Virus record (IMG/VR): IMGVR_UViG_3300046698_000139
Span: 1-28,918 of that record
Length of the DNA stretch: 28,918 bases
Direction: 5' to 3' (one strand)
Source: a virus
The position numbers and the translations under genes are program-made. Shown here one piece after another: positions 7,414 to 25,734 of the stretch; position 1 is the first letter of the stretch; the number at the start of each line of letters is the position of its first letter. The notes under the pieces are model-generated. The model saw nothing but the letters and a program-made list of their open reading frames with translations, was not told the DNA's origin and made no database searches.

Positions 7414-9981
7414 TTATGCTGAGATGAACTTCGAAACCTTATCAACCAACTCCTTTGCGGCCTGCACGGGCGCACCGCTCAGTTTTGGAGTTGTGATCGG
7501 AACCGCTGCCTGTTGGCGCAGATTGGCGAGCGCAGCCATGGCATCATCGAGCGCGGCAGCCTCCAATTGTTGAACTGTTGGATTAGGTTGCGGCGGCGGC
7601 GGCGCACCGGCGCGACCAATCTCCCCTTTGAGCTTCTCTTTGTAGCTTGCAACCTGCGCCTGATAATCGATGGCCAGGCGCTTGAACGCAATGATATTAG
7701 CCCATCCCATTGGATTCTGCTGCTTCACATCGCAATTTTCTGCGCAAAATTGATCAATCGTCGGGAGCAGGATGTTGTAATCCTCAACCCACTTGTTCGG
7801 CGCGATCGATGGATTGAACATCGGCGTACCGTCGTCAGGATCGGTCATCTGCATCCCGTTCGGTCCGATCTTCGGCGTCGGCGGTGTCTGGAGCAGCCTG
7901 CGGATGTCCTGGAGCGTCTTCGACCGCTGCGCGGCGCCAGGCGCAACCGAGCCCGGCAGCCCCCAGTAGTCGTTGAGTAGCTGCTGGTTGGCAGTCTCGT
8001 CAAGCCACGCGAGGGCCGCCGGGTTCTGTTTCTCAGCCATCTCCATGATCGTCTCGCACCACTGGCGCTTCTGCTCGGGTGTCATGGGCAGGCCTTCGTC
8101 GGTGTTCGCGCGCACCCTCACCCGGCCCTGCATCTCGTCGAGATGGACATAGTTGTTCCGGAACTCGCTGCCGTTCTCTTCGATCACTTGCCAGAGCGAG
8201 CCGGTATAGGCCATGTTCTGCTGGAGGCACTCAATCGCGTTCTGGCCCGCTGAGGCATGCTCATCCTTCATCGAGTCGTAAACGTCCGATAGCGGCCCCA
8301 TTGCCTGATCCAGCATCTGCTTCTGGCCCTTGCCAGTCTCGACGCCTGGGGTAGTGCCAGTGCCAGAGACCTGCGGAGGGATGCCGGAGATGATCTGGCA
8401 ATAGTTCCAGAGCCGGTCGAGGTAGTCGAAGAGGCCGGCGTCCATCTGGAACTGGAAGTGGTAGATGGAGTTCGCAAGCGGCTGAGTCACGCCCTCACCC
8501 ACCGATGGCGTCGGATTGAGCACTCCGCCCGTTAGCGGCTTGCCGCTCATCTCCCGAATGTCGATGCGCCGAGGGTCAACCAGCGTGATGCCGGTCGAGC
8601 AGCGCTCCATGTAGTCGTCGAGGATATTGTTGATGGCGTTGAACCGCTCATTGAACGGAACAACATTGTCAGCCACGCTCGGCGGGTACAAGCCATATCC
8701 GCGGTGCAGTTTGCAGGCTGACCACTCTTTGATGAGGACGGCTGGTTCGACCGAAAGCACCAGTGGCCCGTACATCGTGACCTTCATCCCATAGGGGAAG
8801 ATGGCCTTGAGTTGCTGTACGAACGCATCGTCATTCTGAATCCGGTAGTAGGAATTCGGCTGGACCCATATCAGCGAGTAGGTTCCGCGCGCGGCAAAAA
8901 TATCGGCCGTGACCGAGAACGACGACGAGAAGACCATCGTCCGCACCAGCCGCTCATAGCTGGCATTGTCGTTGGTGGCGCTCTCGACCCCCTCGGTGAT
9001 CTCCGGGGCCATGTCGGGGAAGGTTGCCCGCACATCCGAAGCGTCAACTTCCCACTCCAGCGCCAGCAGTGGAACGTCTTCGAGAAACTCCTTGGTTGGA
9101 TCGGTGTCCACCTGTAGCGGAGAGAAGACCGACCATTTCGGCAGGCCATTGGGCTTCTTCTTGGTGCCCACCTGGCCGATCACCGCGGCGGTCTCGCCCG
9201 GCTGAAAGTCTTGGGGATTGAGTTGCGCGCCGCACTGCGGGCACCTCATCTGCCCAGTTTCGGGAGAATCGGCGCCGCAGTTTGAGCAGTGGAAGTGGTC
9301 CTCGGAGATTTTGGCGTCGATGTCGCCGAAGACCGGCTCGTTCTTGTATCCCACCCAAACGCCATCAATCACGAACCGGGTCCACTTGAAGTAGACACCG
9401 TAGAGGAATAGGTACTGCGCTTCGAGTTGCAGCAGGCCCTTGGTCTTGTTAGCCTCCTCGATGATGGTGATGGCTTCCTGGCCGGCCTTGGCCGTGGTCA
9501 TGTCGGCCAGATTCTCGGCGTTCTCGGGGCGGATGACGACCGGGGGAACGGCGCGCGCGACAGCGGAGGAGAAGTTGCGCCGACAGGTCTGAGTGATGTT
9601 GTTGACGTACTTTTCGAGATAGCTGTAGTCGGTTTCTTGGTTGTTCTGGCGGTAGTAGGCAACGGCGTCGAAGTAGGTCCGGGTGATGGGGTCCCAACCG
9701 AGAATCTGCTTGCCCTTGTCGTACTCGGTGTTCTTGAGCCAGTTGGGCATCTTCATAATGCGATCGGTGGCCCACTGAGTACGGAAAGGCTGGATGATCT
9801 CGCCGACAATGCGCTCGCTCTGCTCCTTGGTCAATCCGTGGAGGCGGTCGAGGCTCTGAGAGTCGCCTGGTTGAGGATTTTGGGGAGTCTTTTCGGCGGT
9901 GGCGGGAGTGGTCGTCTGCTGCGGTGAAGATGGTAAATTGCCGCCGGATTGCATAGTAAGGACAGGGGGACTAGCCGCCAT
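7414..9981 (-). CDS. Putative portal protein with inserted zinc ribbon (855 aa)
   Basis: A large soluble protein with a Pro/Gln-rich N-terminus (1-45), a helical region (50-200) with many aromatic residues, a zinc ribbon (C232, C235, C247, C250; CSNC then CPQC), a central beta/alpha region (280-520) and a long helical C-terminal part. The size, helical stem-like regions, the stretch FNAINNILDDYMERCSTGI near 447, and location upstream of scaffold- and coat-like genes fit the portal of P22-type phages, the dodecameric ring through which DNA is packaged. Four-cysteine ribbons are not part of the usual portal core, so this is an insertion. Start ATG 9981 follows AGGAAGG and overlaps the previous gene by 11 bases. 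Another in-frame ATG lies at 9951. Confidence 0.75.
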   Translation of the reverse strand: MAASPPVLTMQSGGNLPSSPQQTTTPATAEKTPQNPQPGDSQSLDRLHGLTKEQSERIVGEIIQPFRTQWATDRIMKMPNWLKNTEYDKGKQILGWDPITRTYFDAVAYYRQNNQETDYSYLEKYVNNITQTCRRNFSSAVARAVPPVVIRPENAENLADMTTAKAGQEAITIIEEANKTKGLLQLEAQYLFLYGVYFKWTRFVIDGVWVGYKNEPVFGDIDAKISEDHFHCSNCGADSPETGQMRCPQCGAQLNPQDFQPGETAAVIGQVGTKKKPNGLPKWSVFSPLQVDTDPTKEFLEDVPLLALEWEVDASDVRATFPDMAPEITEGVESATNDNASYERLVRTMVFSSSFSVTADIFAARGTYSLIWVQPNSYYRIQNDDAFVQQLKAIFPYGMKVTMYGPLVLSVEPAVLIKEWSACKLHRGYGLYPPSVADNVVPFNERFNAINNILDDYMERCSTGITLVDPRRIDIREMSGKPLTGGVLNPTPSVGEGVTQPLANSIYHFQFQMDAGLFDYLDRLWNYCQIISGIPPQVSGTGTTPGVETGKGQKQMLDQAMGPLSDVYDSMKDEHASAGQNAIECLQQNMAYTGSLWQVIEENGSEFRNNYVHLDEMQGRVRVRANTDEGLPMTPEQKRQWCETIMEMAEKQNPAALAWLDETANQQLLNDYWGLPGSVAPGAAQRSKTLQDIRRLLQTPPTPKIGPNGMQMTDPDDGTPMFNPSIAPNKWVEDYNILLPTIDQFCAENCDVKQQNPMGWANIIAFKRLAIDYQAQVASYKEKLKGEIGRAGAPPPPQPNPTVQQLEAAALDDAMAALANLRQQAAVPITTPKLSGAPVQAAKELVDKVSKFISA

Positions 9982-11112: not shown

Positions 11113-11559
11113 CTACGGTCCAACTGCAACGTGCGTGTAGCCGGACTGGCCGTTAGTCATGCCTTCAAGTGCCATGCGGCGCTGGGTGGTCAGTGCGCCG
11201 TTGTAGCTGATGTGGATGCAGCGAAACAGGCCGGCTGAGTTGCGCTCCAGGATCACCTGGTCGAACGGTAGGCCGCTCTGGAGCCGAATCCAATCAAAAA
11301 TGACTCGATACATAAACGGCATCGAGTCGAAATCTGCGGCGCCGTTCAATCCGAGGTAGAGATGCTGGCTGTCCGCGGCCCCGCCAACGCGCTGGTTGTG
11401 CTCCGGGGTGCGGTAGCCATCATGCACGTTCACCGGGCCGAACTTGACCCGGATAGGCTCCAGCAAGAGGGTGCAGAGTTGGACGGCGTTAGCGATGATC
11501 TGAGGAGAGCAGCCAGCCACGCCAAGTTCGGTATCTGCGAAGTACGGACTCAGTTGCAC
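11113..11559 (-). CDS. Putative endolysin, peptidase M15 family (148 aa)
   Basis: Likely zinc D,D-/L,D-carboxypeptidase or endopeptidase that cuts the peptide cross-bridges of peptidoglycan. Residues 43-54 hold VNVHDGYRTPEH, typical of the M15 fold. SQH at 64-66 and GAAD at 73-76 give the zinc ligands H66 and D76, and CIHIS at 114-118 gives H116. E105 in VILERN may be the general base. The H-to-D spacing is three residues longer than the common SxHxxGxAxD pattern. The start is GTG at 11559 with AGGAGG four bases upstream; an ATG just before it is out of frame. The length matches single-domain M15 phage lysins. There is no signal peptide, so export would rely on the holin. Confidence 0.88.
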   Translation of the reverse strand: MQLSPYFADTELGVAGCSPQIIANAVQLCTLLLEPIRVKFGPVNVHDGYRTPEHNQRVGGAADSQHLYLGLNGAADFDSMPFMYRVIFDWIRLQSGLPFDQVILERNSAGLFRCIHISYNGALTTQRRMALEGMTNGQSGYTHVAVGP

Positions 11560-16089: not shown

Positions 16090-19000
16090 TTAGTAAAATG
16101 GCACATCTCTTGGCGTTCCGGCCACGTTGATAACCAAACACCCTGTCGGCCCTACCGCTGGACAGTTGTTTACACCAGGCGCATCCACCGTTGCACCTAT
16201 CGACACTTGCCCGGTCCCAACTGTTTCTGCCGGTCCCGTTAACCAAAACGAGTGAGCAAGTAAGGTGAGCAAACCGTTATATGGCGTGTCGGTGTCAAAA
16301 CTAAGCAAGCCGTTGGCACCACGAGTTTGATCCGGGCACCATTGCAACCACGGTCTAGACGTTATACCTACACCAGTAAATCCAAAACAAGCTGACGGAC
16401 CACCGCTAAAATTGACACCGCGCATGACGAACTGCCACGGTAAACCACCACCCGAAGGTGGCAGAAGCGATACTCCATTTTGCCCCACCCCTGCGTTGTT
16501 CATGCCAAAGATAGAGTAGGTATCGTATGTACTGGTTGAATCGAGAGTTTCTCCAGCAAAGAACCCGGTGTAATTGCTGGTGTACCCTCCGAGAGTTGGA
16601 TTTGGGTCTTGTAATACCGTACCTGCTCCAACTCCAGACCCGGAGCGATTTGCTGTTGAGGCCACTGTTGCTCCCAACAACGGTGGAGATTGAATATGAT
16701 TCGTTCCTGTTTCGATTGAATTAACAATCAAATTGGAAACCAAGTTAGTCCAGTTATCTGTTGGATGGTGGTAATCTGTGCTATCTTGCAAGTAGTAATT
16801 TGGATCAGCAGAGTTATTTACAGGTCCGTCAACATCCACCAGCAACCCACCCAAAGAATTGATGTATAAACCTTGCTCGTTGAGCAAAACATTCGTTTGC
16901 GCGGCAGTCACATCGGCCCAACAGTAGGCATCTGGACCATAGGGGGTTAGAGTGGTATCGACGAATGCCGCACCATCTGCATGAAGATTCTGCCAAAGAG
17001 TTTTATGCGCTGCAAAAATAGTCGCAGCGTTCTCACAGGATGCCGCGTCCTGATCGAAATGAAGAATGAATAAAACTGGAGTTGTTGCACCGCCCGCTGG
17101 TGTGAACGGGTGCATTGTTGTTGTATAATTTGTAGCTTCATTTACAGCAGTATCTCCACTTACTGTGTTATCGACAACAGTGACGCCAGCTTGTTGGGCA
17201 AGCGTTGAATATTTAAGTTGCGAAGGTAATGTATACCTGCAAGCATTTGATACTCCCGTCACAGATGGGGTGCCGCTGTAGGCTGTATAAAAACCCAACT
17301 GCTGAAGTCCGATTCTTGGACCGCCTCCGTTGGTCGAGATGGCTAATCTATAGTAGGTGTATAGACCAGGGGTAATTGGAAAATTCACAGCAACGTTTGC
17401 TACCCATGATGAGAATGTTTCGGTGTCCAGCGTAGTCCACGAGACACCATCGGTTGAGCCTTCAAAAATCCAATTTGTAGGGCTATTGCTCAAATCTCCG
17501 TAGAAATCCCAGGGAGTTATAGAATAAGACGAGAATTGAGTCTTAGATGGAAATTGATATTGTACATATTCGTTGGAGTTTGTAGCAGCATTCCATCCGC
17601 CGTTGGTTGGATTGAATACCTGCCACGGAAAATAATAACTGTAACGACTAGAAGCAGTCACTAATCCAGACGGGGCATTGTTGGAAGTCATAACAGGAGC
17701 AAGCTGTAAACTTGCGCTCCATTGAGTTGTAGACAAACCGGCGCTTAAAACCGTAACTAACTGCCCGTTCAAACCTGTATAGGGAGCAGAAAACCCTTGT
17801 AAGATGTGGATGTTTCCCGCAACCTCATTGTTGTTTTGAGTGAATGTGATTACACCGCTGGAGATACTGATTGCTGTTGGAAATTCGGACGCCGAACCGG
17901 AACCGAACATACAGCTTGATGAAACACGCGAGCGTGAATCCCCATTATCAATCCAATGAGTATTTGCCGCTGGATAAAACCCGGTCAACACTGTCCCGGT
18001 CTGCCCGTTAACGCTATCAACTGCGCCTCCTCCCGAACCGCAGGGACTTCCGGTGTTGCTGATCAGGCCCGTGGTTGCTATCTGCAAACAGTCTGGACCA
18101 CCTGTAGATGGAGCTAGGCTGGTCGCATATTGATAGTCCAGGTTGTTTGGGATCAGCGGATGAGTTATATGCGAACTGTTGAGATTCTGCCAGCTTGCCA
18201 AATATGGAAATCCTACATTCAGAATGTCGTATATATCTTGGTAGACATTGACTGGCTCCGCATTGTTTTCGTCGTAACTCAACCCATTTACAGTTAGTGT
18301 TCCAGTGGCCGACGAGTGTACGTACTCGATCAGCCCTTCCTGCAAAGACGATGCCCGGTATGGGTCAGTAGCCATTGCTGGGCACGATTCGCATTGGTAT
18401 CCGGTGATAGTGTTCGCGCCAAGAACTCCATAAAACATCGCTCTCGTGATTCCACTGGCATACAGGCTGTTGATTGGGAATCCAACCGGGATAGAAAGAT
18501 CGTCGCGCGATAAGTTCTCCCATCCAAAACCAACTACGCCTTTGTAACATCCCCAGTTCGCTCCGTTGATAGCGTTTGCAAGGTTTCTCGATGTTTGGCG
18601 CTGGCTGGGTGTTTGAGGGAAGGCGCATGGCTCCAAAAAGTCTACAGCATTTGCACTAAACTCCGGTTTCCAAAACTCCTCTGCAAACCAATCGTCGATT
18701 GCCGAGTTCGATCCGCTGGAGATGATATGGAGGTTGCTGATCGATACAGGTTCCGAGAAACCTCCCGCTCCTTCGGCATAATCGGTGCGGTGCGCCCATG
18801 CTCCGCCGTTTACCAGAGATGCCCCATCGGAACTGAAATTGAGATCGGCAATCTTGAATCCGTTGTCCATTGAAGAGGTAAGCAGACCAAGTGCATCGTT
18901 CGTGAAAGTCATGTCGTGGACAGAGCTATAGTTGGCGTTGTTGTTGGCGAATAAGCCCACAAAGGCTTGCTTGATTCCGATTCCAGTCACATCCGAGAAA

Positions 19001-21720
19001 GCCAGTGGACCACCAAACATCGCTGGCTCTGTCAGCATCGATCCCGGCGTGGGAGTGTCGTAGGTGAGATAATCCCACACTCCAATAAGTTCCACGCCAG
19101 CGGAATATGCCCCACCGGGTCCAAGCCAACTTACATTGGGTTGCATCATTACCTGCACGGGCATGGCGGCAGGAAGTAAGGCGGCAAGATTAGTGCATTG
19201 AGACGTGAAAGCCGATGTTCCTCCGTTCCAGCAAGATACATTTCCGAAGACAATGGCGGGGGCTACAGAGCATCCCACGGGGGCGGTGCTCCAAGTTGCG
19301 CTCGTCACTACACCGGATGAGTTAGTAGTGGCTGTTCCTTGTCCTTCGACATAGTATTCATCGCCTAAGGCAATGCCTCCCGTGTAGGTGCAGGAGTTGC
19401 TTACTGCAAAGATGTTCACCGTGCCGCTATGCACATACCCTGCTCCGCCAGCGCCGATTGAAGGCGTCCCGCATGTCCCGCCCGTGAGTGTGCAGGTCGC
19501 CGTCGCTCCGTCGCCTCCCAGCGGCACAACCGCGACTGTCGGCGCTGTCGTCAGGCCGTATCCGTTGTAGACTGCCGTAACGGTGGAAACGACACCGCTT
19601 GAATTTGTGTTGGCTATGGCAAACTCCCCGCCGCAGGGACCGGCATAGACAGCGGGGCATCCCCCGGTGAACGTCATTTGCATCTGTGCGCTGTGCGGGT
19701 AGCCGCTCCCTCCATTCGTCACCGTGTAACCTGTGATTCCGCCTCCAGCTACTGTTGCTGTTACCACTGCGCCACTGCCTCCAGCGGGAGATTCATAGCC
19801 GCCGTCGTCTTGCGCCACGCCAGAGGTCACATAATAAGGAGATGTGACCATGAGGTAATTCCCTGGAGGAACTGCACAAGTAGCTCCACCGAGATTTGTT
19901 GCATAAGTCGCGCAAGCGTTGAATGCGGGCACGTTGTCTGTGCCGATGAACCAGTTGGCTTGTCCTGTGGTTAAAGACGCTTTGTCCACCGTCGCATAGT
20001 TTCCTGAAACGGAGAGAATCTTGACCACGTTTCCTGGTTCGCCTTGGGTAGCTGGATACGGAGGCCATGCGCCTCCATGCGCTCCGCTTTGCAGCACAAG
20101 GTATTTGCCTACATCAGCCGACGTGAATCCGACGTATGAAGTAACGTAACTGTCTCCGGTGTTGTAGTAGTTACCTGCTGTACCTTTATCCACGTAAACC
20201 GCATTTGCCAGCGCACCGAAGGCCGTTACTGCGAGTTCAATGTTCGGAGCCGTGTTGGTCACTTCTACGCTCGTGCCCGACGGAGTAATGGCAATGCCTG
20301 GCCCAGGCGTGATGTTCAGAGCGCCGGTTAGGCTATTAAGGCTGCTTACTCCACCGCTCCCGCTGCACCCCGTGCAACTGGTAACGGTGAGGTTGCCGCC
20401 AATGTCGATGCTCCAGTTGGCCGCGCTCACCACGGTTGGTCCTACTGATTCAATATCAACTGCGCCGGTCATGGTGCCGGGATGAGTCGAATATGCAGAA
20501 CTCTGCGACGATATGTTGACGTTCCCCGCATTCGCTTGGCTTGAGTTAGCATCGATCACCACGTTGCCTTGCGACTCTAATCCGATGCCAGATGAATCTA
20601 TGCTCACTGGCCCTGTCGCCGCGAGATTGATAGCACCATCGGGGCCATTGTTTTTTGATGGGTCACTATCGCAATGATCTGGGTCGGTAGGACCGCCTGT
20701 GCAGTTGTCTGCCGTCAGGGTAACGTTTCCGTCGCCGACTTCTGGCCCTGCATCGTTCTTGAAGGCTCCAGCGTTGAGACTGGCGTTTCCTTGCAGAAGA
20801 GCTAGTTCACTGTTATCGTTTTGCAGTTCACAGCACGACCATCCATTCGCAAGCAAATCGATAGATTCCTGATTGTCGAAGGTATCAGTCGCAAGCACGT
20901 TCACTTGTGGCCGAGAAGATAGATTGCTGGCTAGTTTATTCGCGTTCAGGTTTATATCAGCACTTTGGTCTGTTGGCTGTGCTTGGACGGTGAAGTTCGC
21001 GGGGAAGGTGAACGTCTCCGAAGTGGTGACGCCATAATCAGCGAGTGAGTCCACGCAACCACCCGAGCCAGCATCGAGCAGCAAGTACCCAGCTATGCCT
21101 CCCGATGGAGGGCATCCTGTGCCGCCGCCGCTACAAGAATTCGGCTGCGCCACATACGCAGATCCGCTCCAGAGGTAGGCAACCAGGCATGGAGAGCGCG
21201 CGTCCTCGATGCTTACCGCGGCGCTTCCGGTTGCCGCCGTAATCATTCCTGTAGTGCCGCCGAGTCGTGACCAGTCCGGCGTTAGAATGACCTCGTAAGG
21301 CAATCCGGCCGCGTAGTTGATCGCCTCCTGGAGCCCTGCGGTCGCTGAGGTCAGCGTGAACGTGTTGTGCTGGTGAACGGGACTGACGGTGATCGAGCAG
21401 CTTGAGTTACTGGTGTACACCGCCGACGGCACCACAATCTCTGAGTTGGCCGGCACATGGTCCTTGATGTAGACGGGGGTGCCCACGTTGAAGACCGGCT
21501 TTAGAGGCATCCCGCTCGCGGTCGCGGTGCAGAAGTACGGAGCGGACCATGAGAATTCGCCTGTGTTGCCCTGGGGCACACTCCACTGGCCGAAGTTCGA
21601 CGCCCAGAGGATGCCGGCCGTGTTGCCTGGACCCTGCGTGACCTGGCCGGGGGTCTGGGCGAGGGCTGAGCATCCTGCGCCCAGCCCGAGTATCGCAAGC
21701 AAAAGAGTCAGTTTTTTCAT
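16090..21720 (-). CDS. Giant exported tail-spike-like protein with SGNH esterase and discoidin-like insertion (1876 aa)
   Basis: Residues 1-22 are a signal peptide (cut at ALA|Q). Residues 35-190 are the N-terminal domain shared with the next two upstream genes. Residues 460-490 hold a tail-fibre motif (LNSLTGALNITPGPGI). Residues 496-1200 look like a pectate-lyase-type beta-helix (VTAFGA at 498; AFNACATYATNLGGATC near 600), with three Gly-rich GSGY-type repeats at 650-770. Residues 1233-1246 carry SVNGQTGTV. A GDS at 1260-1262, VSGDTA at 1520-1525, HFDQD at 1554-1558 and DYHHP at 1649-1653 (D1649, H1652) fit SGNH blocks I, II, III and V. Residues 1345-1480 resemble an F5/8 type C domain. It has no clear ribosome binding site and starts four bases after the preceding stop. 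The C-terminal half is AT-rich. Likely role: host-surface polysaccharide binding and deacetylation. Confidence 0.8.
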   Translation of the reverse strand: MKKLTLLLAILGLGAGCSALAQTPGQVTQGPGNTAGILWASNFGQWSVPQGNTGEFSWSAPYFCTATASGMPLKPVFNVGTPVYIKDHVPANSEIVVPSAVYTSNSSCSITVSPVHQHNTFTLTSATAGLQEAINYAAGLPYEVILTPDWSRLGGTTGMITAATGSAAVSIEDARSPCLVAYLWSGSAYVAQPNSCSGGGTGCPPSGGIAGYLLLDAGSGGCVDSLADYGVTTSETFTFPANFTVQAQPTDQSADINLNANKLASNLSSRPQVNVLATDTFDNQESIDLLANGWSCCELQNDNSELALLQGNASLNAGAFKNDAGPEVGDGNVTLTADNCTGGPTDPDHCDSDPSKNNGPDGAINLAATGPVSIDSSGIGLESQGNVVIDANSSQANAGNVNISSQSSAYSTHPGTMTGAVDIESVGPTVVSAANWSIDIGGNLTVTSCTGCSGSGGVSSLNSLTGALNITPGPGIAITPSGTSVEVTNTAPNIELAVTAFGALANAVYVDKGTAGNYYNTGDSYVTSYVGFTSADVGKYLVLQSGAHGGAWPPYPATQGEPGNVVKILSVSGNYATVDKASLTTGQANWFIGTDNVPAFNACATYATNLGGATCAVPPGNYLMVTSPYYVTSGVAQDDGGYESPAGGSGAVVTATVAGGGITGYTVTNGGSGYPHSAQMQMTFTGGCPAVYAGPCGGEFAIANTNSSGVVSTVTAVYNGYGLTTAPTVAVVPLGGDGATATCTLTGGTCGTPSIGAGGAGYVHSGTVNIFAVSNSCTYTGGIALGDEYYVEGQGTATTNSSGVVTSATWSTAPVGCSVAPAIVFGNVSCWNGGTSAFTSQCTNLAALLPAAMPVQVMMQPNVSWLGPGGAYSAGVELIGVWDYLTYDTPTPGSMLTEPAMFGGPLAFSDVTGIGIKQAFVGLFANNNANYSSVHDMTFTNDALGLLTSSMDNGFKIADLNFSSDGASLVNGGAWAHRTDYAEGAGGFSEPVSISNLHIISSGSNSAIDDWFAEEFWKPEFSANAVDFLEPCAFPQTPSQRQTSRNLANAINGANWGCYKGVVGFGWENLSRDDLSIPVGFPINSLYASGITRAMFYGVLGANTITGYQCESCPAMATDPYRASSLQEGLIEYVHSSATGTLTVNGLSYDENNAEPVNVYQDIYDILNVGFPYLASWQNLNSSHITHPLIPNNLDYQYATSLAPSTGGPDCLQIATTGLISNTGSPCGSGGGAVDSVNGQTGTVLTGFYPAANTHWIDNGDSRSRVSSSCMFGSGSASEFPTAISISSGVITFTQNNNEVAGNIHILQGFSAPYTGLNGQLVTVLSAGLSTTQWSASLQLAPVMTSNNAPSGLVTASSRYSYYFPWQVFNPTNGGWNAATNSNEYVQYQFPSKTQFSSYSITPWDFYGDLSNSPTNWIFEGSTDGVSWTTLDTETFSSWVANVAVNFPITPGLYTYYRLAISTNGGGPRIGLQQLGFYTAYSGTPSVTGVSNACRYTLPSQLKYSTLAQQAGVTVVDNTVSGDTAVNEATNYTTTMHPFTPAGGATTPVLFILHFDQDAASCENAATIFAAHKTLWQNLHADGAAFVDTTLTPYGPDAYCWADVTAAQTNVLLNEQGLYINSLGGLLVDVDGPVNNSADPNYYLQDSTDYHHPTDNWTNLVSNLIVNSIETGTNHIQSPPLLGATVASTANRSGSGVGAGTVLQDPNPTLGGYTSNYTGFFAGETLDSTSTYDTYSIFGMNNAGVGQNGVSLLPPSGGGLPWQFVMRGVNFSGGPSACFGFTGVGITSRPWLQWCPDQTRGANGLLSFDTDTPYNGLLTLLAHSFWLTGPAETVGTGQVSIGATVDAPGVNNCPAVGPTGCLVINVAGTPRDVPFY

Positions 21721-21724
21721 AGGA

Positions 21725-22696
21725 TTAGTTCAGAATCGCATACGAGAAACATCTGGGGTTAGTGGTTGGAGCAGTGGTTGTGATGGTGAAACTGGTTCCG
21801 GCAGTGCGCGCGCTGATGGTCGGTGGCGCCGTGGCTGCGGTGGCATTACAGGTGACACTCAAAGCAGTGCTGAGGCTCGGGTCTTCCTGCACCAGAATGG
21901 TCGAGGTCGCCGTGACAGCAGTCGTATTGACGACAACGGTCGTTCCCGAGGCCGCCACATTCACGAATCCGGCCGGTGCCGCTGCGCAGACCGCTGGAGA
22001 TGAAGCAGAGGCGCATTTGGTCGCGCTGGCCAGAGATGTATATGTCGCCGCTCCAAGTACCGGGGTTGTCAGCGTCGGGCTGGTCGCCAGAACACTCTTT
22101 CCGCTTCCGGTCGAGTTTGACGCTGGCGTGCCGTTGCCGGTGTACGGAATCGCGGTCGCATTGCGCTGATCGAGGATCGTGGTATTTGCGCCGGCCGTCG
22201 CTGCGGTAATCATTCCGCTGGTGCCACCCATGGCAACCCAGTCTGGAGTCACCACAACGATCCCATAGCCTGAACCGATCCAGTTCAGCGCCTCTTGCAG
22301 CCCCAGCGTTCCGCTTTGCAGGTAGTAATTCGAGTGCGCATGGGTCGCGGGCAGGCCAACCGAGCAGCCGGCGCCGTTATAGCTTGCAATCGAGGGCGTC
22401 ACGGTCTCGGTGTTCGCCGGAACGCCCACATCGACGATGGTGATGGGCGCCGTGGTCGAGAACAATTTGAAGTTGACCCCGCCGGACGTGCCGTAGCACT
22501 GGCTGGGGCTGGTCCAGGAGAGGCCAAGATCGCTCGGCTTGATGGTCCAGTGGGCAAAGTTGGCGGCGTAGAGCTGGCCGGCGATGTCAGCCGGGCCGTT
22601 GGCGGGCTGGGTAACGCTGGCGGTGGGGCTGGTGACTTGAGCAGCGAGCGCCAATGGCAATGCCAGGACCGCTGCGAGCAAAGCATATCTTTTCAT
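21725..22696 (-). CDS. Exported tail-fibre-like paralogue B (323 aa)
   Basis: Residues 1-19 are a signal peptide (MKRYALLAAVLALPLALAA|Q). Residues 40-190 match the shared domain of the 1876-aa and 309-aa proteins: AANFAHWTI, ANTETVTPS (94-102), GLQEALN (132-138), PDWVAMGGTSGMITAAT. Residues 200-222 (SVLATSPTLTTPVLGAATYT) are a motif I know from phage tail-fibre proteins. The C-terminal strand-rich part (ATAPPTISARTAG ... CFSYAILN) resembles the end of the 309-aa protein. The ATG follows AAAGGAG. Likely a fibre or receptor-binding subunit; why it carries an export signal is unclear. Confidence 0.75.
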   Translation of the reverse strand: MKRYALLAAVLALPLALAAQVTSPTASVTQPANGPADIAGQLYAANFAHWTIKPSDLGLSWTSPSQCYGTSGGVNFKLFSTTAPITIVDVGVPANTETVTPSIASYNGAGCSVGLPATHAHSNYYLQSGTLGLQEALNWIGSGYGIVVVTPDWVAMGGTSGMITAATAGANTTILDQRNATAIPYTGNGTPASNSTGSGKSVLATSPTLTTPVLGAATYTSLASATKCASASSPAVCAAAPAGFVNVAASGTTVVVNTTAVTATSTILVQEDPSLSTALSVTCNATAATAPPTISARTAGTSFTITTTAPTTNPRCFSYAILN

Positions 22697-22724
22697 GGCG
22701 ACGATGCTCCTTTGAAAATGGTTC

Positions 22725-22779
22725 GGGCTGGGCCTCCGCGAAGAGAACCCAGCCCGGTTGTCGGCTCTGAAAAGAGCCG
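22725..22779 (-). promoter_or_regulatory. Two tandem hairpins between paralogue genes
   Basis: Arms 22725-22733 (CGGGCTGGG) and 22748-22756 (CCCAGCCCG) form a perfect nine-pair stem. Arms 22762-22768 (CGGCTCT) and 22773-22779 (AGAGCCG) form a seven-pair stem with a four-base loop. Neither is followed by a good T-tract, though AACCATTTTC follows the first on the minus strand. They fill the gap between the 309-aa stop and the 323-aa ribosome binding site; attenuation or mRNA stabilisation is inferred. Confidence 0.55.
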
Positions 22780-22807
22780 CGGCCCGCTGTGATGCTGCGG
22801 GGATGGT

Positions 22808-23737
22808 TTACTTGCAGTTCCAGCTAAAGCTGTACGCTGTGGTGCTGGCCAGCGCCGAGGCCACAGAGACCGTCATAATGCCGTGGCTTGAGTAGGAGTT
22901 CGTCACGGTCAGGGTTGGCGGTGCTGTCGCTCCAGTGCTCGTGACCGTGCAAGAGCCTGGTGCAGCTTGGAACTGTCCACTGTTCGCCCAAGTTTCGGTG
23001 AATACAGTGCCAGTGGTCGCGGTGCCGGTGGTGAATGAATAGGTGCCAGAGAGAGCGGTGCCTGTCGCAACTTTGCTGGTCGCGGTGCCTGCGGCCGCGC
23101 CTGTCGCCGCGGTCGGGGCGGTGTTGACCCATGTTCCAGAGGCATACGCCGAGCCATTCCACACGTAGTAGGTCGGTCCAAGAGTGGTGATGTCCTCGAC
23201 CATGACTGAAGCATCACCCTTGGCCGCGCCGAGAATGGTAGCCGCCGTGGTCCCAGGGATCTGGTTGGCGATCGTCCACCAGTTCTTGTCCAAGAACAGC
23301 AGTGTCGGCCATGCGCCCTGCCCGGAAAGCGCGTTAATCGCCTCTTGGAGGCCTGCCGTGCCGGATCGCAACTGGAAGTTGTAGTGATTGTGGGCCGGGG
23401 CCACGGTCGCGCCGCAACTGCCGGCCGTGTTCACGACAGCCGACGGAGTGACTACTTCGGAGTTTGCAGTGTTCGCGTCCGCAATCAGGACCGGGGTGTT
23501 ACTCGCGTTGAAGACGAAGAAGTTCACGTTCTGGCCGGCGCTGTTGCAAAGGTTGCGGCCCTGGAAGATGTAGGTATTCGGGCTCTGGCCATTGATCGAC
23601 CACAGTTGGAAGCTGCTGGCGAAGTACCAGGGAGCCGTGAACGGAGTGTTGGCGGTTTGCGCTTCAAGCCTGGGAGCCGCGCACACGGCGGCGAGGATGA
23701 GCGCGACGGCGAAACCAAGAACTGACTTGTTGCGCAT
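22808..23737 (-). CDS. Exported tail-fibre-like paralogue C (309 aa)
   Basis: Residues 1-27 are a signal peptide (likely cut at LEA|Q). Residues 38-200 are the shared domain: ASSFQLWSI, ANSEVVTPSAV (91-101), TAGLQEAIN (127-135), VWNGSAYASG near 192-201. Residues 200-245 are a Thr/Gly/Ala low-complexity linker. Residues 260-309 repeat the APPT-type C-terminal strands of the 323-aa protein and end FSWNCK. The ATG follows AAAGGAG, with the bases around it (ATCGCCATG) close to those before the 323-aa gene, as expected after tandem duplication. Confidence 0.75.
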   Translation of the reverse strand: MRNKSVLGFAVALILAAVCAAPRLEAQTANTPFTAPWYFASSFQLWSINGQSPNTYIFQGRNLCNSAGQNVNFFVFNASNTPVLIADANTANSEVVTPSAVVNTAGSCGATVAPAHNHYNFQLRSGTAGLQEAINALSGQGAWPTLLFLDKNWWTIANQIPGTTAATILGAAKGDASVMVEDITTLGPTYYVWNGSAYASGTWVNTAPTAATGAAAGTATSKVATGTALSGTYSFTTGTATTGTVFTETWANSGQFQAAPGSCTVTSTGATAPPTLTVTNSYSSHGIMTVSVASALASTTAYSFSWNCK

Positions 23738-23782
23738 GGCGATGTTACTCCTTTGGGGTTGATGGTTGAGGTTGCTTGCCGC

Positions 23783-24268
23783 CTACCAGCTAATTGTGAC
23801 CGATGACGGCGATTGAAACGACATATTGAAACTCGAAGCTCCGCCGCCGCCCAGAAAAGAACGGAACAGCAGGGTATTGAGATTGGTAGGGCCTGAGCAG
23901 ACCGGCGTGGGATAGCTGTAGGTCAATCCGCCTCCGACGCTGCCATTGCCCTCAGCCAGCGTCATCCATGTGCTGCCGCCGTCGCAACTGACCTGCATCT
24001 GCCCGGTGCCCGAGCCAAACGCCCCACCGAGGCTAAAATCCGCATCGTGGGTCGAGTTGAAGTGGAGATTACCCGAGACAACCTGAGATCCGGGCGAGAC
24101 CGAACCGGATGTGAATGTGCAAGTTGTCCCGCTACAGTTGATGGTTCCGAGGCCTGGCGAGAACTGGTAAAAGTGCGTGTTGCCCCGTGCTCCGGTGGTC
24201 CGGCCCGGCGCGCCCGGCACTTGAGCCGCCAGCATCCCGGCGCAGAGCAGCAGAAGAGACCAGCGCAT
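23783..24268 (-). CDS. Exported beta-rich protein (161 aa)
   Basis: Start ATG 24268 overlaps the stop of the 488-aa gene as TGATG; the longer open frame upstream lies within that gene and is rejected. Residues 1-15 are a signal peptide (MRWSLLLLCAGMLAA|Q). The rest is Gly/Ser/Thr-rich with beta-type alternation and two Cys pairs (INCSGTTC at 43-50; further Cys near 94 and 124). It includes DGGSTWMTL, a common surface-protein strand motif. Function unknown; it sits inside the fibre cluster, so it may be a structural partner or surface adhesin. Confidence 0.7.
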   Translation of the reverse strand: MRWSLLLLCAGMLAAQVPGAPGRTTGARGNTHFYQFSPGLGTINCSGTTCTFTSGSVSPGSQVVSGNLHFNSTHDADFSLGGAFGSGTGQMQVSCDGGSTWMTLAEGNGSVGGGLTYSYPTPVCSGPTNLNTLLFRSFLGGGGASSFNMSFQSPSSVTISW

Positions 24269-25734
24269 CACTTCACCCCCACATTCAGCGTGATTGCCGT
24301 CGGCGTGATGTTTGAAGCGGTCTGGTTGCAGATGCTCCAATCGAGCACATCCGGCGAAGAATCGGCTGCAAGTTGAACCACCAAACCGCCAATGGCTCCC
24401 CATCCCACCGCAGCATTTACTGCCGCAATAGACGGCCAAGCGGTGGTGAATGTTGAAGTCGAAACAACGCCAGGTAGAGAGGCTGTTGCGGTCGTCGTGC
24501 ACGTGTTGGCGTTGATAGTCGTTGCCGGAAGCGACAACTGCACCATGGCTCCCGATGGAGCCGCCACAGACACGTTGGTCCGATGGTTGCTCGGGTCGTC
24601 GACCACCGTGAAGCCGGAAGCGAAGTTGAGATTCGACTCCTGCGGCTGCGCGGTTCCCGCTGACTGAACGGTCTGGTAAAATCCGCCGCAAAGGATGCCG
24701 GTGTCGTAAGCCGTGCCGTCTGAACTCAGGCAATAGCCAGCCGTGCCGCCGTCCCCGTTCACCAGGTAGCCACCCGCCGCGTTGATGAAAGACGAGAGCC
24801 CGCCACCCTCAACATCGACACCCCAGCCTGGTGTGCCGGTCCCAACGCCGAGCTTGCCGACGCCGGTGACGTTGTAGCCGCCCAGGCTGAGCGGCCCGGA
24901 GATTGACTGCTGGCCGTGGTTGGCCGGCGCCGACAATATCGGCACGGGGTAGTAGACGACGCCGTGGTAGTAAGGCAGGCCGTTCGATAGGTTGATGGTG
25001 CTCCCGGCGCCCATGAGCTGCCACTGCATCGGGTAGCCGGGCACCGGATTGCCGTACTGGTCGGTCAGTGAGACGTTGTAGCCGGTCCCCGTTGGCCAGA
25101 TCGAGTCATTGGCCGTCACAGCGCATACGGTCGTGTTCGAGGCTGGTACGTTGGCGCCGGAGGCCAGCGCTGTCGATTGAACGAATGACGCGCTCCCGGT
25201 CGTGTACCCCTGGAGTTTCTCAGCGCCGCTCACCGTCGAGATATAGACCGCCATGCCGAGCGCACCGGTGGGAACACCGCTCGAGGGCGGGTTGACCACC
25301 AGCGCCCCGGTTGTGCTCAGGGTTTGGACCGTCTCCGGGCTCGGCAACGAGTAGAGCACCGTCGAGGCTGGCTGGTAATACCAGGCATAAACCGTGTAGT
25401 AGACTCCAGAGCCGAGCGATCCTGACCCGCTGGTGGTGTTGACTGTCGCTGTTTGGGGGTTGGGAAGGAAGACGACCGAGCCATCGGTCGAGGTCGCGCA
25501 GGTGTTGTTGGTGGGAATGTTGACCTGGCAACCGGCGATGAATCCCTGCTGGCTGGGCACCAGCGTCATCGTGTAATTCGAGGCCGGGAGACCGTTGGCG
25601 CCGCCGATTGTGCCTGTCAGCGTGACCTGGGCGAGCTGCTGACAGGTTGGCGTGCAGTGGCCGATGGTGGGGCAGATCAGGATGAGTGCTGCGAGGATCA
25701 GACCGGCGAGGAGGATACGCTGGTTCCGAGTCAT
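24268..25734 (-). CDS. Exported tail-fibre-like protein (488 aa)
   Basis: Residues 1-27 are a hydrophobic signal or anchor (LLAGLILAALILICPTIGHC). Residues 30-270 are beta-rich with Ser/Thr/Gly repeats. Residues 300-350 show a Gly-rich KLGVGTGTPGWGVDVEGG stretch as in phage tail-fibre shafts. Residues 357-395 (FYQTVQSAGTAQPQESNLNF, then FTVVDDPSNHRTNVSV) match a widespread fibre motif. The ATG overlaps the stop of the 69-aa gene as ATGA with GGAGG upstream. The cysteine following the signal could be a lipid-attachment site (GHC), but the lipobox is poor. First gene of the exported cluster. Confidence 0.75.
   Translation of the reverse strand: MTRNQRILLAGLILAALILICPTIGHCTPTCQQLAQVTLTGTIGGANGLPASNYTMTLVPSQQGFIAGCQVNIPTNNTCATSTDGSVVFLPNPQTATVNTTSGSGSLGSGVYYTVYAWYYQPASTVLYSLPSPETVQTLSTTGALVVNPPSSGVPTGALGMAVYISTVSGAEKLQGYTTGSASFVQSTALASGANVPASNTTVCAVTANDSIWPTGTGYNVSLTDQYGNPVPGYPMQWQLMGAGSTINLSNGLPYYHGVVYYPVPILSAPANHGQQSISGPLSLGGYNVTGVGKLGVGTGTPGWGVDVEGGGLSSFINAAGGYLVNGDGGTAGYCLSSDGTAYDTGILCGGFYQTVQSAGTAQPQESNLNFASGFTVVDDPSNHRTNVSVAAPSGAMVQLSLPATTINANTCTTTATASLPGVVSTSTFTTAWPSIAAVNAAVGWGAIGGLVVQLAADSSPDVLDWSICNQTASNITPTAITLNVGVK

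Follow-up and report, generated by a model that had tools for sequence, protein, structure and literature searches.

A putative SGNH-type esterase domain split by a beta module and an F5/8 type C domain in a modular phage surface protein

The HE/HEF proteins of coronaviruses, toroviruses and influenza C unite two functions, binding and the removal of an ester, in a single viral surface protein, in which a jelly-roll carbohydrate-binding domain forms a linear insert in a discontinuous SGNH esterase (PMC9487903, PMC7495468). In the CE20 esterases XacXaeA, Fl8CE20_II and PpCE20_II an ancillary beta-sandwich resembling that of GH2 is inserted in the SGNH domain and makes up one three-dimensional unit with it, the enzymes being flanked in addition by N- and C-terminal beta-sandwich domains; the published residue numbers (Ser112, Gly199, ancillary domain Arg313-Lys370, His515) place this insert after the oxyanion Gly and therefore not between blocks I and II (PMC12313940). 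SGNH deacetylase spikes and fibres have been reported from phages and prophages, including phage G7C gp63.1, Possum gp66 and receptor-binding proteins of Klebsiella prophages, and the available portions of these reports describe an SGNH-type domain within a large modular receptor-binding protein, O-deacetylation that leaves the backbone uncut, and no insert in the SGNH core (PMC9569702, PMC10743462, PMC13123978). Domains of the tail-type F5/8 type C (F5/8C) family (phrog_17517) occur in Lysinibacillus phage LC76P1, Bacillus phage G and Erwinia phage RisingSun.

We analysed a viral DNA of 28,918 nucleotides (IMG/VR record IMGVR_UViG_3300046698_000139, here called the window) together with sibling contigs, and followed up an 1876-aa protein, the third in a tandem array of phage surface proteins and a long, variable one (Table 1). 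The reading that we prefer, with a probability of roughly 60 %, is that the distal part of this protein (residues ~1246-1668) is an SGNH-type esterase domain split by a small beta module and an F5/8C domain, the whole serving to hold a sugar and to remove an ester group from it.

Table 1 Positions of the 1876-aa protein, its parts and two neighbouring genes in the window
Feature	Residues	Window position	Strand	Remarks
Modular protein	1-1876	16090..21720	minus	Single open frame, no stops; third of three tandem paralogs
N-terminal anchor	1-205	21106..21720	minus	Starts with Sec-signal-like leader; 59-68% identical to L002-L005
Central region	491-1195	18136..20250	minus	Common to siblings; identity to L015, L004
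SGNH block I strand and GDS, S1262	1254-1264	17929..17961	minus	Aligned with MGDS (L015) and EGDS (L014)
Small beta module	1276-1338	17707..17895	minus	First part of block I-II excursion; conserved in L015
F5/8 type C (discoidin, CBM32-like) domain	1340-1478	17287..17703	minus	Profiles, AF2 core, Foldseek; missing from L015 here
Rest of SGNH-type domain (blocks II, III, V)	1490-1668	16717..17253	minus	Profile and hhalign matches
Block II VSGDTA, G1522	1520-1525	17146..17163	minus	Motif and alignment
Block III HFDQD, Q1557 in place of canonical Asn	1554-1558	17047..17061	minus	Motif and alignment
Block V D-Y-H-H-P	D1649/H1652	16762..16776	minus	Aligns with the GDHLHP motif of canonical GDSL proteins from acidobacteria
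C-terminal 55 residues	1822-1876	16093..16257	minus	Resembles C-terminal end of another L015 tandem paralog
Peptidase M15, likely endolysin		11113-11559	minus	PF08291, E 4.8e-10; downstream of 1876-aa gene
855-aa protein, candidate portal		7414-9981	minus	Weakly similar to L023 portal protein, E 0.006

A first-pass annotation of the DNA had proposed SGNH blocks in this protein with a discoidin-like insertion, and its motifs together with D1649 and H1652 were all found at the claimed residues of the open frame, with GDS (1260-1262) at nt 17943-17935 and HHPTDN at residues 1651-1656. The order of these motifs is suggestive but modest evidence when taken alone, since a GDS followed 60-450 residues on by D..HP arises in 0.7% of shuffles of the 1876-aa protein. 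Block I does lie ahead of the insertion and not behind it, GDS ending at residue 1262 and the F5/8C domain beginning at 1340.

The inserted domain carries the F5/8C signatures SGLVTASSRY (1351-1360), YVQYQF (1385-1390), STDGVSWTTL (1422-1431) and YYRLAIS (1456-1462). PF00754 matched with 28.8 bits in one search (cut-off 28.2) and with 24-25 bits, under the cut-off, in hmmscan, and PHROG 17517, annotated as a tail protein, matched residues 1338-1470 with an E-value of 1.2e-23. The domain forms a jelly-roll in AlphaFold model 1, with a core pLDDT mostly of 64-93, and the best PDB matches that a Foldseek search with this model returned include CBM32 and the discoidin domains of lactadherin, neuropilin and factor VIII. 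On the basis of profile and structure residues 1340-1478 are a genuine F5/8C (CBM32-like) domain.

SGNH homology of the part behind the insertion was detected in several searches. PF13472 aligned to residues 1505-1655 over profile positions 25-173 of 178 with 16.4 bits (cut-off 32.9), and the 24 positions absent from the start of this match correspond to the block I part that precedes the insertion, as a split domain predicts. Comparison by hhalign with four canonical bacterial GDSL proteins, taken from genomes that belong to the same phylum as an Acidobacteriales genome, gave an E-value of 8.9e-7 and a probability of 91%, and the aligned pattern H-A-x-G ... T-L-x-P ... Y ... D-x-x-H-P brings D1649 and H1652 into register with the catalytic pair. 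An HMM built from these four proteins and the L014 paralog, thus without the window protein, matched residues 1509-1665 (E 1.2e-9 in a two-sequence search). The assignment to SGNH and F5/8C families made in the first-pass annotation agrees with the matches of PHROG 17517 and of this HMM, although PF13472 stays below its cut-off. A PDB sequence search with the window protein alone gave no match.

Among the sibling contigs, the SGNH domain of L015 contains in order MGDSR, the beta module, AGVTIVQKSAGGDSAANE, GSQD and ENLHLTDPG with no F5/8C domain, and both flanks of the window protein match it in the same order, the first with 39% identity (E 5.9e-8) and the second with 32% (E 1.6e-8). The third paralog of L014 matched PF13472 above the cut-off (33.6 bits, E 7e-8) with blocks I and II contiguous and its chain interrupted after block III. 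In a three-way alignment of the window protein, L015 and L014 (A18) the GDS, a P-x-Q, D1558 and the block II Gly G1522 are conserved, G1522 being invariant. Alignments with many F5/8C rows forced L015 into F5/8C columns and were excluded from use. The flank homology to L015, the SGNH profile match behind the insert and the GDSL match of L014 with its contiguous blocks I and II place the F5/8C domain inside an SGNH-type domain, and the proposed order of blocks I, II, III and V with an F5/8C-type domain between I and II agrees with siblings and profiles alike.

These comparisons also bear on the possibility that a chance GDS, an F5/8C domain and an incomplete SGNH-like domain merely follow one another as unrelated pieces. 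A GDS is weak when taken alone, a second one lies at residues 522-524 of the same protein, and those near F5/8C in L083 and L114 were dismissed as chance; L015 however keeps the block I flank with GDSR in order with blocks II-V, and block I of the window protein aligns with that of L014, which is part of a PF13472 match, so that we consider this explanation highly improbable.

The insertion had been described as following the nucleophile block directly, and this holds for its position between blocks I and II but not for its immediacy, as about 75 residues come first. These include the beta module, which is already present in the F5/8C-free L015. As read from the sequences, the excursion is thus a beta module of ~60 residues, of sufficient age to be common to both proteins, followed by the F5/8C domain, and among the siblings it is common to L015 only. 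The beta module also matched a further protein in the L004 tail region (E 6e-4) and a stretch within the L014 SGNH domain (E 0.6), and since it is found in the L004 protein and perhaps within L014 it looks mobile. L010 contains GDSRS, GLSGTEL, INDI and DGTHEGP with ~85 extra residues ahead of block V, by motif reading only. We also noted beta modules in the SGNH-type domains of L014:9995-12532 and L010:7391-11017, located between blocks III and V.

Structure prediction was run with AF2 on an alignment of the window protein, L015 and four F5/8C rows (A12, run 1) and on A18 (run 2), with a mean pLDDT of 48.6 and 33.7, respectively. Most of the run 1 model outside the F5/8C core fell below 60, the esterase part was mostly below 50 and nothing was well folded in run 2, so that an esterase core emerged with confidence from neither run. 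At this low confidence model 1 places a block I strand at residues 1254-1258, and the predicted alpha-beta-alpha-beta-alpha order with a final helix behind the insert fits SGNH.

We use the name SGNH-type rather than canonical SGNH hydrolase because the block III Asn is absent, although this Asn is not universal among active enzymes. In HFDQD a Gln replaces the Asn and a Phe the Gly of GxND; L015 likewise has Gln (GSQD) and L014 retains Asn (GRND). The deacetylase activity suggested in the first-pass annotation is for this reason not assured. The substitutions in HFDQD, the Glu that L015 has at the block V Asp position and a precedent in the reverse direction, the vestigial lectin of one coronavirus HE (PMC7495468), would fit a split SGNH fold with reduced or lost catalysis whose role, shared with the F5/8C domain, is that of binding only. 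We regard this as unlikely, given that S1262, G1522, D1649 and H1652 are all kept, that the SGNH families SASA and PatB1 are active without the block III Asn (PMC9487903) and that CE20 esterases have Gln at this position (PMC12313940). Esterase activity of the split domain is therefore putative but plausible.

Under the preferred reading of a split, active esterase the chain would leave the SGNH fold after block I, form the beta module and then the discoidin/CBM32-like domain, and re-enter the SGNH fold at the helix that precedes block II. The inserted domain would bind a sugar of a host surface polysaccharide and hold it near the S1262-H1652-D1649 site, which would remove an ester group, probably acetyl, in the manner of the G7C-type deacetylase spikes, and this removal would let the phage move along the polysaccharide or expose a receptor. 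We infer that the two halves fold together, that the reaction is ester hydrolysis with acetyl as leaving group and that the insert binds sugar.

The remainder of the protein is shared with siblings to differing degrees. The anchor of ~200 residues is common to the three paralogs, recurring at window positions 23144-23737 and 22127-22609, and tandem sets with a common anchor are present in several sibling contigs. The central region is 43.7% identical to L015 over ~600 aa and 35.6% identical to L004 over ~510 aa and possibly represents a beta-helix spike body, and residues 1822-1876 are 41% identical to the C-terminus of another L015 tandem paralog (E 3e-5). All three paralogs start with a Sec-signal-like leader which is kept in the siblings. 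Such leaders are present on five successive minus-strand genes of the window (16090-25734), which is unusual for a phage structural region; beside the three paralogs these are a 488-aa gene at 24268-25734 and a shorter one within 23783-24733.

We infer a virion location and a tail spike role for the 1876-aa protein, although Sec-like leaders are unusual for tail proteins, speak against such a location and leave it in doubt. The protein could instead be a phage-encoded surface enzyme secreted through host Sec export with no part in a virion spike, as the leaders on the three paralogs, their siblings and two neighbouring genes and the lack of any spike or tail profile match besides F5/8C would suggest. 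This we judge improbable, as the third paralog is long and modular and, like tail fibres, varies on its C-terminal side while its anchor is conserved, the M15 peptidase and the candidate portal gene lie in the same gene run, and phrog_17517, matched by the F5/8C domain, is annotated as tail protein. The 855-aa candidate portal protein also gave a sub-threshold zinc-ribbon match, and searches of the sibling contigs for terminase and portal families returned no match, one of them being uninformative as its controls too stayed silent. Occurrences of GDSL and GDSR in the portal and the major head protein of L023 were dismissed as chance.

Taking the window domain as a split esterase, its likeness to HE/HEF is one of layout: a discontinuous SGNH domain encloses a jelly-roll domain, an arrangement which for the window protein is read from sequence only. 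HE/HEF are envelope proteins of animal viruses with O-acetyl sialoside specificity, and the window protein is by context a phage protein with an F5/8C-type insert; HE keeps the block III Asn where the window protein has Gln. The HE lectin sits after the oxyanion-hole blocks, so that its loop would be that of L014 and L010 and not the block I-II loop of the window protein. CE20 shares with the window protein both a beta-sandwich within SGNH and the Gln in place of Asn but differs in block I (GQSNM against GDSR) and block V (DxH against DYHH) (PMC12313940). The SGNH deacetylase spikes resemble the window protein in their modular setting, but as far as their accessible descriptions go not in having an insert. 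The tail-type F5/8C domains of other viruses belong to the same family and are 28-44% identical to that of the window protein, yet SGNH blocks on both sides of F5/8C were found in none other among 80 viral loci with this domain. We class the window domain as an SGNH-type split esterase domain and do not place it in HE or CE20. The architecture had been called unusual, which holds in three respects, its occurrence in a phage, the type of domain and the loop used; as HE and CE20 already show the general arrangement of a lectin-like domain in SGNH, novelty is confined to these three.

Provided that the two halves form one fold and that the domain is active, the protein would be a phage equivalent of the hemagglutinin-esterase layout of animal viruses and, among SGNH enzymes with an embedded lectin-like domain, a third independent case. 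The loops used are block I-II in the window protein and L015 and block III-V in L014 and L010, and it is a tentative suggestion, which we hold to be somewhat doubtful, that in this soil group the phages assemble their receptor-binding esterases by placing beta modules and carbohydrate-binding domains in different SGNH loops, independently reaching the HE layout. The F5/8C-free sibling and the siblings using another loop constitute a natural series on how insertion alters substrate binding and on why the loop behind the nucleophile tolerates 235 extra residues.

Scans of viral contigs with esterase, anchor and F5/8C queries found no esterase relative of the I-II type but L015, and a scan of genome contigs found none. 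Outside its F5/8C domain the window protein had no recognisable match by sequence in 50,697 phage records; a match in Achromobacter phage Axy09 was dismissed as chance. Within the incompletely covered literature we found no phage SGNH protein with an inserted carbohydrate-binding domain and no other case of placement between blocks I and II. PF00754 was found in 0 of the 23 sibling records and PF13472 above its cut-off in 1 of 23, the latter being a lower bound because this profile misses L015 and L010.

The GC content is 44-48% all along the cassette spanning blocks I to V (window 16717-17961), compared with 62% for the anchor, 54% for the central region and 58% over the whole window. The F5/8C domain, at 44%, is not distinct from its flanks, and the composition therefore suggests that the esterase may have been acquired with its insert as a single piece. 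Viral relatives of the tail-type F5/8C domain are common, with 193 of 244 pattern matches confirmed. A further tail-type F5/8C domain, 37% identical to that of the window protein, was identified at L036:1501-2268 in an open frame of a genome of the Acidobacteriota phylum and is possibly part of a prophage remnant.
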